This document shows, piece after piece, positions 25,225 to 54,792 of a DNA stretch of 64,000 nt. A model generated the notes under the pieces. That model was not told the DNA's origin and did not search any database. It saw nothing but the letters and a program-made list of their open reading frames with translations. Location of the stretch: positions 1 through 64,000 of the forward strand of contig NZ_FMDM01000014.1 of NCBI RefSeq assembly GCF_900090105.1, given 5' to 3'. The translations under genes and the position numbers were made by a program. The first letter of the stretch is position 1; each line of letters starts with the position of its first letter. The DNA is from Micromonospora humi (lineage in GTDB: Bacteria > Actinomycetota > Actinomycetes > Mycobacteriales > Micromonosporaceae).

Positions 25225-26652
25225 TCAGCGCGCGTCCTGGCGGGGCAGCACCACCTCGCGCAGGATCAACTGCAACGCGGCCACCGTCGGGATGGCGATC
25301 AGCGCGCCCACCACGCCCAGCAGCGACACCCCGAGGAGCGCGGCGAGCAACGCGGCCACCTCGTTCACCGACACCGCCCGGCGCATGATCTTCGGGTAGA
25401 TCAGGTAGTTCTCCACCTGCTGGTAGACCACGAAGAACACCAGGCAGGCGATGCCCACCGGCAGGTCGGTGGCGAGGCCGACAAGCGTCACCACCACCGC
25501 GCCCAGGGTCGCCCCGATCTGCGGGATCAGGTCGGTCACCGCCACCACCACGGCCAGTGCGAACGGGTAGGGCAGGTCGACGACCATCGCGAACACGAAC
25601 GTGCTCGCCCCGGCGAGCACCGCGATGGCCAGCGCGCCGACCATGTACGCGCCGACCCGGGTGAGGATCTCGTCGCCGATCAGCCGTACCCGCTCCCGGC
25701 GCGAGCGCGGCACCAGCGCGTACCCGAGGCTGCGCAGCTTGTCGAAGTAGGCCAGGAAGTAGATCGTCAGCACCAGCACGGTCAGGACCCGGAAGATCGT
25801 GCCGAAGATCAGTTGCGCTCCGCCGAGCACGCCGCCGAGCGCCCGGCTGATGGTGTCGGCGTTCGCGGCCGACCGGACCCGCTCCATCACGTCGTAGCGG
25901 ACCACGAGGTCGTTGACGGTGGGATTGCGGCGCAGGTCCTCGACGTAGCCGGGTAGCTGCTGGACGAACTGCCCGGACTGGGTCACCACCGGGGGCACCA
26001 GCGCGAGCAGGCCGCCCACGATCAGCAGCACCACGGTCAGCGTCACCACCGCCACCGCCAACCCGTGCGGCAGGCCCCAGCGGCGCAGCCGGACCACCGC
26101 CGGGTGCAGGCCGACCGCCAGGAAGAGCGCGATCACCACCAGGACCAGGATGCCGGCCGCGTTCCGGACGCCCAGGAAGACGGCGTACGCCAGCAGCACG
26201 CCGAGCGCGCCGGTGAACCCGACCAGGAAGCTGTTGCGCCGCAGCGGCCGCCCCGGCACGCCGAAGCGCCCGGACGGCTCGAACTCGCCCGGCTCGATCT
26301 CGGTGACGGCGGCGCCGGTGCTTCCGGCCCGGGGTGTCGGGCCGGCGCCGGTGCTTGCGGTCGGGGTGGTCGGGCCGGGTTCGGTGCGGGCGGTGCCGGT
26401 GCTTGCGGTCGCGGTGGTCGGGCCGGGTCCGGTGCGGGCGGTGCCGGTGCTTGCGGTCGGGTTCGTCGGGCCGGGTCCGGAGCTGGAGCGGCGCGCTGCG
26501 CCGGAACCCGGAGGTCGGGCCGGCGCGGTGTCCTTCGGAGCGGCCTCGTGCGGCGGTGTCGGCGCGCGACCCGGGTCGCGCGGCTCCGGCTCCTCGCGCA
26601 ACGCCTCGAACGGGTCGTCGTCCTCCGGCGCGGCGGATCCCTCCTGCGACAC
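25225..26652 (-). CDS. AI-2E-family (PerM-type) membrane transporter
   Basis: The last 340 residues form a typical AI-2E exporter core with about seven to eight transmembrane helices, the conserved FFVVYQQVENYLIYPKIM (in parts) and ending VALQLILREVVLP. The first 120 residues are hydrophilic and rich in Pro, Thr, Ser, Gly and Ala, with imperfect 16-residue repeats encoded by 48-bp DNA repeats. A GTG start (VSQEGSAAPED) is used; an in-frame ATG at 26691 would add 13 Gly/Cys-rich residues. Family members export small molecules or ions; the substrate is unknown. Confidence 0.87.
   Translation of the reverse strand: MSQEGSAAPEDDDPFEALREEPEPRDPGRAPTPPHEAAPKDTAPARPPGSGAARRSSSGPGPTNPTASTGTARTGPGPTTATASTGTARTEPGPTTPTASTGAGPTPRAGSTGAAVTEIEPGEFEPSGRFGVPGRPLRRNSFLVGFTGALGVLLAYAVFLGVRNAAGILVLVVIALFLAVGLHPAVVRLRRWGLPHGLAVAVVTLTVVLLIVGGLLALVPPVVTQSGQFVQQLPGYVEDLRRNPTVNDLVVRYDVMERVRSAANADTISRALGGVLGGAQLIFGTIFRVLTVLVLTIYFLAYFDKLRSLGYALVPRSRRERVRLIGDEILTRVGAYMVGALAIAVLAGASTFVFAMVVDLPYPFALAVVVAVTDLIPQIGATLGAVVVTLVGLATDLPVGIACLVFFVVYQQVENYLIYPKIMRRAVSVNEVAALLAALLGVSLLGVVGALIAIPTVAALQLILREVVLPRQDAR
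26335..26480. repeat. 48-bp in-frame tandem repeats within the transporter gene
   Basis: Just over two full units and partial flanking units of a 48-base sequence, each containing GGTGCTTGCGGTCG, encode the Pro/Thr/Ser-rich cytoplasmic tail. The frame is kept, so copy-number change would only alter linker length. Confidence 0.75.
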
Positions 26653-26804
26653 CGTGCCTCCCCCGCAGCTCCCCGTCGCCCCGACCGGCATGTCGGAGCG
26701 CTCCTGAGCCGCCCGCGCGTGGTCGACGCCGCGGCCCCGCCCCGCAGGTTAGCGGCCGCCACGCGTGCCGACCATCCCTCGGCCCGCCCTCTCCCCGCCC
26801 GGTC

Positions 26805-26859
26805 GATCATGAGGCTGACGGTGTGGAAAGCGCTCTCCGAGGCGGACAACTTCATGATC
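26805..26859. repeat. Palindromic element with GATCATGA ends
   Basis: GATCATGAGG and CTTCATGATC form 10-base arms with one mismatch around a 35-base centre. The centre contains TGGAAAGCGCTCTCC, itself nearly palindromic. It resembles the second element in having GATC at both ends and in size (55 bases). Confidence 0.6.
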
Positions 26860-26897
26860 ACCCACGCGACGTGCCCCGGTGGGGTGGGGCCGGATGG

Positions 26898-26953
26898 TGA
26901 TCAAGGGGTTCGTGTCATCGGGGAGATCGACTCCGACACGAACTCCTTGATCA
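26898..26953. repeat. Palindromic element with TGATCAAGG ends
   Basis: Two 19-base arms, TGATCAAGGGGTTCGTGTC and its complement, differ at one position and flank an 18-base centre. It lies 17 bases after the stop codon of the long coiled-coil gene, so it may also act as its terminator. Confidence 0.7.
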
Positions 26954-26969
26954 ATCCGAGGGGGGCGGG

Positions 26970-29060
26970 TCAGTCCTTGTCGACGGTGACGGCGCTGGGG
27001 TTGGCGCTGCGCTCGTCGGTGGTGGGCTTGGTCGGGCGCTTGCCGTTCTCGCCGGTGCTGGTGATCTTCGTGGGTGTGGCGCCCCGGCCGCCCTCGCCCG
27101 GTACGGCGGCCACGGTGGGCTCGCCGTCGACGCCCGCCCCGACGGCCGAGTCCATCGTCGTCACCGGCTCGGCGATCGGCTTCGCCTGCCCGGCCTCGGC
27201 CGGCTCGCCGGTCGACCGGGTCCCGCCCTTCTCCGGCCCGGTGCCGTTGGCCGGCACCGCGGCCGTGCCCTTCGCCGCCCCGGCGCCGACCAAGGCGCCA
27301 CCGTCGGCCGGGTCGCCGCCGCCCACGGGAACACCGTCACCCGTCGACCGGCCGCCGCTGCCCACGGGAACGCCGTCGCCCGTCGGCCGGCCGCCGTTGG
27401 CGGCGGTGGCGAGGTCACCGGGGTCGACCGGGGTGGCGGCGATGCCGGCCGAGTCGGCGTCCCGCCGCAGCGCGGTGAGCCGGTTCTCCAGGTCGTCGGA
27501 CTCCTGCCGGGACTTCCACGTCTCGGTGCGCAGGTCGGCAAGCTCCTGCTGGGCCTTGGCGATCTCCAGCATCACCCCGGCGAGCTGCTGCCGGCCGGCG
27601 GCCACCTCCTGCTGGGTGGCGGCGAGGTGCTGCTGGGTGGTGGCCAGGTGCTGCTGGGTGGTGGCCGCGTACTCCTCGAACTGGCGACGCGAGGCCGCGA
27701 CGTGCTCGTCGGCCTTGCGGCGCTGCTCGGTGGCGCTCGCCTCGGCCCGGCGCAGCAACTCGGCGGCCTCCAGCTCGGCCTGCTGCCGCATGGTCAGCGC
27801 GTCTTCCTCGGCGGCCTGCCGGATGCTCGCGGCGTTGCGCTCGATCTCGTCACGCCGGGTCGTGTACGCCTGCTCCAGCTCCTCGTGCCGGGCGGTGTGC
27901 TGCTTGTCCAGCTCGTCGCGGCGCTTGGCGAACTCCTGCTCGGCGGCGGCCCGGCGCTGGGCCAGCTCCTTCTCCGCCTTCTCCCGCTGCCCGGCCACCT
28001 CCTTCTCCACCCCGGCCCGCCAGGCGCCCAGCTCCTGCTGGGTCTGGGCGCGGGACTGCTGCACGTACGCCTCGGTCTCGGTGCGCATGCGCTGCACGTA
28101 CGCCTCGACCTCGGCGCGGTTGCGCTTGCCGGCCTCGACGGCCTCGGTGGTGAGCCGGTTGGCCTCGGTGCGGGCCCGGCCACGGGTGGCCTTGGCGGCC
28201 TCCTCCGCGTCGTCCACGATCTTCTTGGCCTCGGCCAGCGCCTTGGCGTGGGTGGCCCGACCGGCCTCGGCGGCGGCGTCGGTGAGCCGCTTGGCCTCCT
28301 GCTGACCCTTGGCGTGCACCTCCTTGGCCGCCTCGCGCAGCTGGTTGGCCTCCTGCTGGGCCTTGGCCAGCGCCTCCTTGGCCGACTCGCGCAGTCGCGC
28401 GGCCTCCTGCTGGGCCCGGGAGTGGATCTCCTTGGCGGTGTCCCGCAGCTGGGTGGCCTCCTGCTGGGCCTTGGCCAGCGCGTCCTGGGCGGTCCGGCGC
28501 AGCTTCTCGGCCTCGTCCTGGGCGGCCGTCCGCAGCTTGGTGGACTCGTCCTTGGCGGCCTTCAGCGTGGCCTCCGCCTCGGCCTTGCGGGCGGCGGTGT
28601 GCCGCTCCTCCTCGGCCCGGCGGGCGGCGAGCGCGATCTCGAAGTCCTTGAGGGCCTGCGCGGCCTGCTCCCGGGCCTCCTCGACGATGTGCTCGGCGGC
28701 GGCCCGGCGAGCCTCGATCTCCTCGTTGGCGGCGGCGAGGATGTCGTCGGCCTGTTCCTCGGCCATGGTGAGGATCTGCTCGACCCGGGGACCGAGATGC
28801 CGGAACGAGGCTCGGTCGACCACACCCACCTGCTTGCGCACCTGGGCGAGGTCGCGTTGCAGCACCTCGACCTGGCCGGCCAGCTTGTGGATCTGGGTGT
28901 ACGCCTGCTCCCGCTCGGTGGTCAGCGCCGCGATCTCGTGCTCGGCGCGGGCGACGTAGCGGTCGACCTGACGTTTCTCGTATCCCCGCAGCGCGGACTC
29001 GAAGCTGGGTTCCGTGGTCACGTCCCCGCCGAGCGCGAACAGTTCCTCGCCGTGCGACAT
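26970..29060 (-). CDS. Long coiled-coil cytoskeletal protein, Scy-like
   Basis: A 696-residue protein. The N-terminus has a DivIVA-like motif (ALRGYEKRQVDRYVARAE); a Glu/Ala/Arg/Lys/Gln-rich coiled coil fills about residues 35-525. Four 18-residue repeats of the type ALAKAQQEATQLRDTAKE lie at about 194-265. The last 160 residues are Gly/Pro/Thr-rich and disordered. Scy of Streptomyces, a polarity scaffold at hyphal tips, has the same layout and is encoded next to filP and a methylmalonyl-CoA epimerase gene, as seen nearby here. It is shorter than Streptomyces Scy (about 1300 residues). Tip localisation is inferred. Confidence 0.82.
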   Translation of the reverse strand: MSHGEELFALGGDVTTEPSFESALRGYEKRQVDRYVARAEHEIAALTTEREQAYTQIHKLAGQVEVLQRDLAQVRKQVGVVDRASFRHLGPRVEQILTMAEEQADDILAAANEEIEARRAAAEHIVEEAREQAAQALKDFEIALAARRAEEERHTAARKAEAEATLKAAKDESTKLRTAAQDEAEKLRRTAQDALAKAQQEATQLRDTAKEIHSRAQQEAARLRESAKEALAKAQQEANQLREAAKEVHAKGQQEAKRLTDAAAEAGRATHAKALAEAKKIVDDAEEAAKATRGRARTEANRLTTEAVEAGKRNRAEVEAYVQRMRTETEAYVQQSRAQTQQELGAWRAGVEKEVAGQREKAEKELAQRRAAAEQEFAKRRDELDKQHTARHEELEQAYTTRRDEIERNAASIRQAAEEDALTMRQQAELEAAELLRRAEASATEQRRKADEHVAASRRQFEEYAATTQQHLATTQQHLAATQQEVAAGRQQLAGVMLEIAKAQQELADLRTETWKSRQESDDLENRLTALRRDADSAGIAATPVDPGDLATAANGGRPTGDGVPVGSGGRSTGDGVPVGGGDPADGGALVGAGAAKGTAAVPANGTGPEKGGTRSTGEPAEAGQAKPIAEPVTTMDSAVGAGVDGEPTVAAVPGEGGRGATPTKITSTGENGKRPTKPTTDERSANPSAVTVDKD
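28266..28481. repeat. 54-bp repeats inside the Scy-like gene
   Basis: Four consecutive 54-base units encode 18-residue repeats with QQEA and LR at fixed places. Units one and three (ALAKAQQEA) are more alike than units two and four (IHSR/VHAK), which suggests that a two-unit block was duplicated. Confidence 0.65.
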
Positions 29061-29230: not shown

Positions 29231-30484
29231 TCAGCCGGCCGACTCGGCCGTGACCTTCTGGCCGGCGGCGTCGGCCTTCGGCGCCTCGGCCTTGTTGCCG
29301 CCCGCCGGCACGCCCGGCACGATGCCGGCCAGGCCGGAGAGCATCTGCCCGAGCTGCGAGGTGACCGCGTCCTTCTGGCGGGTGAGGTCCTCCACCTCGC
29401 GGCGGGCCGCCTGCGTGGTCAGCTCGGCCTCGGTGCGAGCCTCGTTGAGCACCCGCTGCGACTCGGCCCGGGCCTCGTTCAGCGTCTTGTCGGCCAGCGC
29501 CTTGGCCTTGTCGACGGTGTCGTTGGCGGTGCGCTCGGACTCGACCCGGCGCGCCTCGGCCCGCTGCTCGATCTCCTTCGCCCGCTCCTGGGCGGCGCGC
29601 GCCCGCTGCTCGGCCTCGTTGACCATCTTCTGGGTCTGGCTGACCTGGGCGGCGTGCCGCGCCGACTCCTCGCGCTCGGCCTTCTCGCGCCGCTCGGCGA
29701 GCTGCAGCTCCAGCGCCTGCAGGTCCTTGTCGCGCTTGTCGCGCGCGTCGGTGAGCAGCTTGGTGGCCTCGGCCCGCTTCTCCTCGGCCTCCCGGGCGGC
29801 CTTGGCCCGCTGCTGGGTGATCTCCCGCTCGGCGGTGGCGCGCAGGGTGGCGACCTCCCGCTCGACGGTCGACTTCAGCTCGGCCACCTCGTGCGCGGTG
29901 ACCGTACGCAGCTGCTTGGTCTCCCGGTCGGCGTCGGCGCGCAGGGTGTCCGCCTCCCGGCGGGCCTGCACGCGCACCTCGGCGGCCTCACGCTCGGCGG
30001 CGGTGCGGACGCTGCCGGCCTCACGCTCGGCGGTGGCCTTCATGGCGGCCGCCTCGGCGCGCGCCTTGTCGGTGATCTCCCGGGCCTCGAGGCGGGCGGC
30101 GGAGAGGATGCCCTCCGACTCGCGCTTGGCCTCGTTGCGGTGGTCGTTGGCCTGCTCCTCGGCCAGCCGGAGGATCTGCTCGACGCGGGTGCCCAGGCCG
30201 GAGAGGGTCGGCCGGCTGTTCTCCTCGAGCTGCTTGTTGGTCTCGGTGAGCTTCTGCTCGAGCGCGCCCTGGCGCTGCTCGGCCTGCCGGAGGCGGCGCT
30301 GGGCGTCGTTCATCCGCTGCTCGGCCTCGGCGCGGGCCTGCTCGGACTGGCTCAGTGCGGCGCTCAGCCGGCCGATGAAGTCGTCGACCTGGTTGGTGTT
30401 GTATCCGCGCAGGCCAACAGTGAAATCGGGCTGTGAGTTCGCGTTATCGAAGAACGCAAGAGGGGAGGACTGCTGCTGGGGCAT
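29231..30484 (-). CDS. Coiled-coil intermediate-filament-like protein, FilP-like
   Basis: A 417-residue protein. After a short N-terminus it has the DivIVA-like VGLRGYNTNQVDDFIGRL, then an almost unbroken Glu/Ala/Arg-rich coiled coil (about 40-385), and a Gly/Ala/Pro tail. The motif near residue 100 (GTRVEQILRLAEEQA) is shared with the Scy-like neighbour, so the two genes are paralogues. Streptomyces FilP, about 310 residues, forms filaments that stiffen hyphal tips; this protein is longer. Conserved gene order with scy, mce and the thiolase gene supports the assignment. Confidence 0.82.
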   Translation of the reverse strand: MPQQQSSPLAFFDNANSQPDFTVGLRGYNTNQVDDFIGRLSAALSQSEQARAEAEQRMNDAQRRLRQAEQRQGALEQKLTETNKQLEENSRPTLSGLGTRVEQILRLAEEQANDHRNEAKRESEGILSAARLEAREITDKARAEAAAMKATAEREAGSVRTAAEREAAEVRVQARREADTLRADADRETKQLRTVTAHEVAELKSTVEREVATLRATAEREITQQRAKAAREAEEKRAEATKLLTDARDKRDKDLQALELQLAERREKAEREESARHAAQVSQTQKMVNEAEQRARAAQERAKEIEQRAEARRVESERTANDTVDKAKALADKTLNEARAESQRVLNEARTEAELTTQAARREVEDLTRQKDAVTSQLGQMLSGLAGIVPGVPAGGNKAEAPKADAAGQKVTAESAG

Positions 30485-32245: not shown

Positions 32246-32349
32246 CTAGGGCGGGAAGTCCTCTGTGAAAAACTGCATCGGCCGATGCGTGGAGATGTCC
32301 GTGGGAACGTGAAACCGCGCATGGCCGCGCGTCTTCCCACGTGTTAGGA

Positions 32350-32390
32350 AGGGCCCCCTATTAACAGACGTCTGTTAACAAGGGGGCCCT
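32350..32390. repeat. GGGGCCCC-type intergenic element, copy 2 (inverted form)
   Basis: AGGGCCCCCT and its complement flank a perfect 18-base palindrome, TTAACAGACGTCTGTTAA, together about 41 bases. It lies 10 bases after the epimerase stop codon and probably ends that message. Confidence 0.75.
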
Positions 32391-32399
32391 GCTTGCATC

Positions 32400-54605: not shown

Positions 54606-54703
54606 GCCTGTTGCTCCCCTCGTGTGGGTGCGTGCTGCGCCGGCAGTTACCCCGATCGCGACGTTTCATGCCTGCTGTTCCGGTTCACCCGGGGACGCAA
54701 GGA

Positions 54704-54742
54704 GGGGCCCCTTCTTAACGCCTGGCGTCGAGAAGGGGCCCC
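54704..54742. repeat. GGGGCCCC-type intergenic element, copy 4 (inverted form)
   Basis: GGGGCCCCTTCT and its complement form 12-base arms; the loop contains ACGCC-T-GGCGT, a further stem. It lies about 50 bases after the stop of the acidic protein gene (54793, minus strand) and before the symporter start. Confidence 0.8.
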
Positions 54743-54792
54743 TTCTCACCGGTCGGCCGGTGAGGTGCAGGTGCAGGTGCGGGTTGCGGGCC

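Follow-up and report, generated by a model that had tools for sequence, protein, structure and literature searches.

Two short palindromes with GATC-containing ends stand side by side in a gap between genes of Micromonospora humi, which raises the question of what they are and what keeps them there. The original prediction took them for two families of small non-coding elements and saw, in the centre of the first one, a sequence similar in form to a LacI-family operator. The window, i.e. the whole stretch of 64,000 nucleotides that was analysed (C25:1-64000), belongs to a genome of 6.66 Mb in 37 contigs. The pair, termed here E1 and E2, occupies the gap 26692-26969 between two minus-strand genes. 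The features of the locus are the following:

26804-26860, no strand: E1 palindrome core, 57 bp, ends CGATCATGAGGCTGAC...GACAACTTCATGATCA, arms YGATCATGARGYTG.., AGCGCT-centred loop
26823-26841, no strand: E1 loop region, with the centre likened earlier to a LacI operator
26898-26953, no strand: E2 palindrome core, 56 bp, ends TGATCAAGGGGTTCGTGTC...GACACGAACTCCTTGATCA, arms TGATCAAGGRGTTCGTGTC, loop with GGAGATCGAC
26917-26934, no strand: E2 loop, its nearest within-genome relative being the loop of C18:28655
26780-26803, no strand: C-rich zone adjoining E1, read towards the element on the plus strand, matching the family-wide flank composition
26954-26969, no strand: G-rich zone adjoining E2, which on the minus strand reads C-rich in the direction of the element, matching the family-wide flank composition
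26740-26780, minus strand: stretch GGGATGGTC..CTAACCTGCGGGG, retained in many relatives, promoter-like by position only
26970-29060, minus strand: gene of a 696 aa coiled-coil protein; E2 starts 16 nt past its stop (stop at 26970)
25225-26691, minus strand: AI-2E family transporter gene (PF01594, E 1.6e-55), downstream of the coiled-coil gene and in the same direction

The GATC-ended palindromes are real, the 55 bases first given for E1 being the GATC-to-GATC span of its 57 bp core, and 37 bases separate the two cores. E2 has arms of 19 nt that are 95% complementary; those of E1 are weaker and interrupted. Folding on either strand gives E2 a z-score of about -7 and E1 one of -2.3 to -2.6. Covariance models score E1 at 58.6 bits on the plus and 45.3 bits on the minus strand (model R2) and E2 at 67.3 and 61.5 bits, respectively (model R1).

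The AI-2E gene has its best named relatives in Micromonospora species, and the 696 aa coiled-coil protein has no Pfam match. The latter looks related to the product of the next gene upstream (29231-30484), which scores 26.7 bits against DivIVA (PF05103), slightly below the 28-bit cut-off. A sigma-70 promoter scan that included the stretch 26740-26780 gave nothing. Rfam covariance models had no match at gathering score in the window and only chance-level matches in the E1/E2 gap (E 0.33 and 0.75). Palindromes of another type, AAGGGGCCCCTT cores with TTAAC, lie in the window at 54700-54746 and 32346-32393, and a AAGGGCCCCTCGC..GAGGGGCCCTT hairpin similar to them adjoins an E1 in genome G251 (L424).

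Two arm families in the genome and the genus

The genome-wide arm search that the original prediction had called for recovered further copies of both half-sites, far above reversed patterns: 72 occurrences of the E2 half-site against 3 (at most 2 mismatches) and 196 of the E1 half-site against 31 (at most 3 mismatches). Half-site patterns and covariance models for each family gave 38 E1 and 33 E2 places that were carried into the analysis. Two weak E1 matches (C28:90293, C17:664408) are excluded from these 71 places, while the covariance and alignment sets hold 16 of 17 E1 (C17:659715 omitted) and 25 of 26 E2 (the E2-like L034 omitted). Core length is 56-58 bp in 66 of the 71 places, with exceptions of 36, 39, 47, 48 and 70 bp. 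The family unit is about 57 bp long, with outer arms near-fixed in sequence (GATCAWGRRGTT), a free inner loop and a fixed length. Arms are conserved and loops variable, yet E1 and E2 have loop types in common; the 66 full-length units comprise 24 loops with GATC plus two pyrimidines, 7 with CGACA..CG, 3 with AGCGCT and 32 others. Both window loops figure in the top two of 2145 within-genome loop pairs, E2 with C18:28655 (similarity 0.85) and E1, inverted, with C22:604227 (0.81).

The side-by-side arrangement is recurrent, since an E1 lies within 130 bp at 5 of the 33 E2 places, against about 0.05 expected genome-wide or 0.5 if one tenth of the genome were available. Neighbouring elements are found elsewhere too, with E2, E1 and E1 in a row in G116 and two E2 in G320. 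Half-sites are rarely single: nearly all of 52 listed E2 half-sites with 0-1 mismatch are paired (by eye). In Neisseria, DNA uptake sequences in inverted pairs are described as acting as terminators (PMC2397512), and their dialects are presented in PMC3630211. The palindromes resemble them in that a short word, conserved but varying in dialect among lineages, occurs as inverted pairs where genes end, and differ in that the half-sites hardly ever stand alone; an uptake-sequence pair was rejected on the grounds that half-sites are almost always paired (by eye) and not abundant singly.

A joint pattern of both arm types matches 157 of 160 genomes of the same genus and, elsewhere in the family, 19 of 194 (hand counts from the table), with up to 122 copies per genome; its reversed control has no match in any genome. 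The E2 model alone finds elements in 79 of 250 genomes, 62 of them of the same genus (this genome included), and as at most 21 candidates were scored per genome, copy counts from this survey are lower bounds. The GATC-to-GATC span is 54-56 bp in 81 of the 95 matches listed (hand count), the pattern admitting 30 to 90. Arm dialects differ among genomes, e.g. AAGGAGTT in this genome and AAGAGGTT in G320. The original prediction, which was to fall if there were no further copies and no conserved arms, stands on both points, its two small non-coding families being borne out by the many genome copies and the genus-wide distribution. E1 and E2 almost certainly represent two arm families of one palindromic element that is dispersed in Micromonospora and in some of its relatives. 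Titles and abstract openings of the literature on Micromonospora and its family held nothing relevant on such repeats.

The joint pattern has 0 to 2 matches in the same-genus genomes G289, G296, G338, G318, G283, G179, G257 and G319 (5.1-5.9 Mb); among same-genus genomes of this size G291 (5.1 Mb) stands apart with 15. Contigs of G251 (C43, C71, C87, C88) and G197 (C26, C34) end at most about 90 bp from an element, suggesting that strong palindromes may break short-read assemblies.

Position at gene ends and composition of the flanks

According to gene calls made by a purpose-written, codon-based finder, the 71 places fall into 28 convergent, 27 tandem and 6 divergent gaps, 9 called ORFs and 1 contig edge. 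Elements are enriched between convergent genes (28 against 33 in other gaps) relative to element-free control gaps from the same fetched loci, which are not length-matched (14 against 125, p = 6.6e-8), and depleted from divergent gaps (p = 2e-5). The upstream stop is the nearer in 23 of the 27 tandem gaps (medians 37 and 151 nt), the closest stop lies within 50 nt in 20 of the 28 convergent gaps, and in 6 cases the TGA of the element is the gene's own stop codon. Of the nine places in called ORFs, four lie at the very start and one at the end of the ORF, and are for this reason probably miscalls; C22:582136, C9:25449 and C27:12133 are possibly inside coding sequence, and C16:397111 has a strongly non-coding score. 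E1 and E2 are therefore, as REP elements are by definition, many short palindromes that are chiefly extragenic and 3' of genes.

The flanks have a composition of their own. In the direction of the element, both 45 nt flanks contain 0.52-0.55 C and 0.20-0.27 G in every gene context, compared to 0.33-0.43 C and 0.33-0.37 G around the midpoints of 89 element-free gaps. At the site C32:498905, followed in 16 genomes, C reaches 0.63 and G 0.18-0.19 on both sides in sequence that is otherwise poorly alignable. The two flanks pair with each other no better than with permuted partners (15 of 60 permutations as good), so the signal is one of composition and not an extended stem. G-rich short tandem repeats, (GGGAC)n and (GGGCA)n, start directly beside an element in L427 (G116) and L393 (G260), where the flanks look as if growing by slippage.

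C-rich, G-poor RNA before the end is a hallmark of Rho-dependent termination, and the approach to the elements has this character, by composition only. Intrinsic terminators of the T-run forms covered by the scan (a G+C-rich hairpin followed by a T run) are absent from 26600-27050. Several observations speak against a terminator or a transcript-end role in general. Firstly, in tandem gaps the flank facing the next gene is as C-rich (C/G 0.55/0.24) as the opposite one (0.56/0.23), a feature that a one-way terminator does not need. Secondly, a plain terminator has no need of conserved outer-arm sequence. Thirdly, 6 of the 71 places are divergent and three may be in coding sequence. Moreover, counting G-U and A-C pairs on the sense strand of tandem gaps gives no bias towards the former (29 against 22, p = 0.40), and in 29 of 30 genomes a separate GC-rich hairpin belongs to the right-hand gene at C32:498905. 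The equal C-richness of both sides, the lack of a G-U bias and this separate hairpin leave room for a role at the DNA level or for no role. A titles-level literature search on convergent or two-way terminators in actinobacteria was without result.

Persistence, loop inversion and dispersal

The gap of the window was compared among relatives of the AI-2E gene, for which 62 of 80 loci and the window were taken in. In G082 (83% identical over the stretch) E1 and E2 occupy the same places and have related loops; G233 combines an intact E2 with an E1 reduced to one arm, and G311 has E1 alone, also with an AGCGCT centre. The other 26 of 30 loci have neither E1 nor E2 in the gap (by eye), several carrying other palindromes, and neither element is found in the gap of 39 named-relative loci. 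Other palindromes with GATC near their ends (AGATCTTGGACAGTTTCCG.., GAGATCTTGGTACGAAACGGCCCC..) lie upstream of the AI-2E gene in L206, L208, L209, L215, L221 and L267, and a further family, with ATATACCGCTG.GTCATA..TATGACTCAGCGGTATAT and ACATACCTGTGAGTCATAT, is found there in L272, L276, L288 and L292; this gap is occupied as if several palindrome families took turns. Loop similarity has a median of 0.64 between orthologues and of 0.23 within the genome. Some copies, the window pair included, are old and others disperse.

Between this genome and G082, 32 sites align across both flanks, 31 of them with an intact G082 element; the G082 regions were fetched because they bear elements, so that rates of presence and absence between the two genomes are not derivable. 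Setting aside four pairs with loop similarity below 0.35, three of which combine an E1 in G082 with an E2 in this genome, leaves 27 pairs, or 26 scorable ones after removal of a tie. The loop orientation is kept in 20 of them and inverted in place in 6, the direction of the flanks being unchanged. Three flips are clear (C32:498905, C20:45702 and C32:185722), no other G082 loop being as similar, and the best flip has a similarity of 0.86 inverted vs 0.21 direct. In the three moderate ones, C36:227718, C32:322515 and C33:5731, fractions of 0.05, 0.14 and 0.10 of other loops are as similar.

The site C32:498905 was followed by eye in 30 genomes. In 20 of them E1 is recognisable with two arms; it is degraded in two and absent from eight. 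Ten of the 20 loops are forward, three reversed and two unscored, while the remaining five carry a different inner arm and loop type, four in one orientation and one in the other. The reversed state requires three changes on the neighbouring-gene tree, as it does on every bootstrap range shown. The sister pair G000/G082, well supported in this tree where many other branches are weak, differs in loop orientation; the tree does not support a clade of the five genomes with the other loop type. In the arms (27 pairs, 19 positions each), 18 positions changed on both sides, compared to about 4.4 expected from the one-sided rate. Covariation within the genome, a signal that relatedness can also produce, is above shuffles for E1 (3 of 500) and hardly so for E2 (36 of 500).

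A small invertible switch operated by a site-specific recombinase was rejected, the invertible part of about 20 nt seeming too small for such a system. The flips and joint arm changes fit template switching because switching between inverted repeats produces both, and we consider template switching the probable cause of the loop flips. It can also mimic RNA covariation. In yeast, template switching is described as homogenising the arms of inverted repeats and inverting their spacers (PMC8604942), and PMC8794818 presents it as making and mending hairpins; inversions in chloroplast trnH-psbA (PMC2903610) are a comparable case of inverted repeats with spacer inversion. The palindromes share with these systems the homogenised arms and repeated spacer inversion. 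However, the inverted spacers of yeast are described as changes of 2-5 bp (PMC8604942), whereas here they are loops of about 20 nt in a dispersed bacterial family.

Dispersal is seen in G251, where two E1-type units 42 kb apart are 98.5% identical over 65 bp in unrelated flanks, one of the copies lying near a contig end; the same unit in two unrelated places indicates that units disperse. There is no clear target duplication around these two copies, and no empty pre-insertion site was found, C17:658735 in G082 being a partial copy that cannot count as one because an arm remains. Y1 transposase (PF01797) has no match in this genome at E 0.01 in a search that was positive in 6 of 14 control genomes. 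No transposase was seen beside single half-sites in six loci, several of these half-sites being chance matches in genes. A RAYT-driven REP is rejected on account of the Y1 transposase missing from this genome, and E1 and E2 are not REPs as defined.

REP, REPIN and BIME elements of gamma-proteobacteria are short intergenic palindromes in many copies, mostly 3' of genes and sometimes paired, all of which applies to E1 and E2. The differences are the lack of a RAYT in this genome, other arms and unit length, symmetric C/G flanks and loops inverted in place. With MITEs, which are dispersed non-coding units of constant length with inverted ends, the palindromes share this build, but their unit is shorter than typical and neither a parent element nor a target duplication was found. 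Dispersal, constant length and arm dialects point to a REP- or MITE-like nature, and REP-like elements without RAYT are the best reading.

Transcript ends and competing readings

That copies have stayed at gene ends for long, with a symmetric C-rich approach, suggests that they are retained for some task at the ends of transcripts. New copies would arise by a copying or transposition process, and a polymerase switching templates within the hairpin would account for the flipped loops and for some or all of the match between the arms. Copies located after genes would then be retained, the C-rich approach and the stable hairpin ending transcription and/or protecting the 3' end in both directions, as a two-way Rho-type terminator or 3' barrier. 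We give even weight to this best explanation as a whole, namely a dispersed family with template-switch flips whose copies may be kept as two-way transcript-end hairpins. The role itself, ending or protecting transcripts, is proposed from sequence and its probability falls a little short of even. A more ambitious version appears doubtful to us: it joins a modular build (arm type by loop type), genus-wide palindromes that evolve in dialects and would act at transcript ends in both directions with a lineage-specific factor, template switching that flips loops on species time scales and yields covariation without selection, and a spread without RAYT.

A purely selfish nature, with REP- or MITE-like elements that some transposase moves and that are biased to 3' positions only because insertions harm least there, would account for the G251 unit at two unrelated places, the varying dialects and the fixed unit length. 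This reading is rather unlikely, though the first to be considered among the alternatives. Y1 has no match in this genome, no other transposase could be tied to the ends, target duplication was not seen, and copies at C32:498905 persist with their C-rich/G-rich surroundings in the 20 genomes noted above; spread alone leaves the symmetric flanks unexplained.

Less probable still are DNA-level binding sites at which a protein specific to the lineage, of a nucleoid, gyrase-like or cruciform-binding kind, would act where transcription units meet. Such sites would agree with the conserved outer 12 bp, the constant and symmetric spacing of the ends, the tolerated loop inversion, the enrichment between convergent genes and the G-U pairs without strand bias. 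Against them, the inner arms change jointly with pairing kept (the 18 double changes), and no candidate protein was identified. A LacI-family operator controlling the AI-2E gene from the E1 centre (TGGAAAGCGCTCTCC) is highly improbable: AGCGCT is retained in G082 and also forms the centre in G311, but in the former it becomes GGGAAGCGCTTCCC within the same palindrome; it is one of several loop types, found in 3 of 66 loops of the genome and in E2-type loops of G320, and the element is located 151 nt upstream of the AI-2E start and behind another gene, in a gap that lacks E1 and E2 in 26 of the 30 genomes examined, as a member of a family placed at gene 3' ends and not at promoters. This part of the original prediction was abandoned, neither promoter position nor operator conservation being found.

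If the explanation by template-switch flips and copies kept at transcript ends is true, Micromonospora genomes would offer dozens of sites each for the direct measurement of hairpin-loop inversion in bacteria, and paired stem changes, the usual proof of RNA structure, could arise by mutation alone. In view of the lack of a Y1 transposase in this genome, the elements may spread by a mechanism other than RAYT. Should the transcript-end role hold, the palindromes would be recognisable as two-way terminators of a major antibiotic-producing genus and usable as tool parts.
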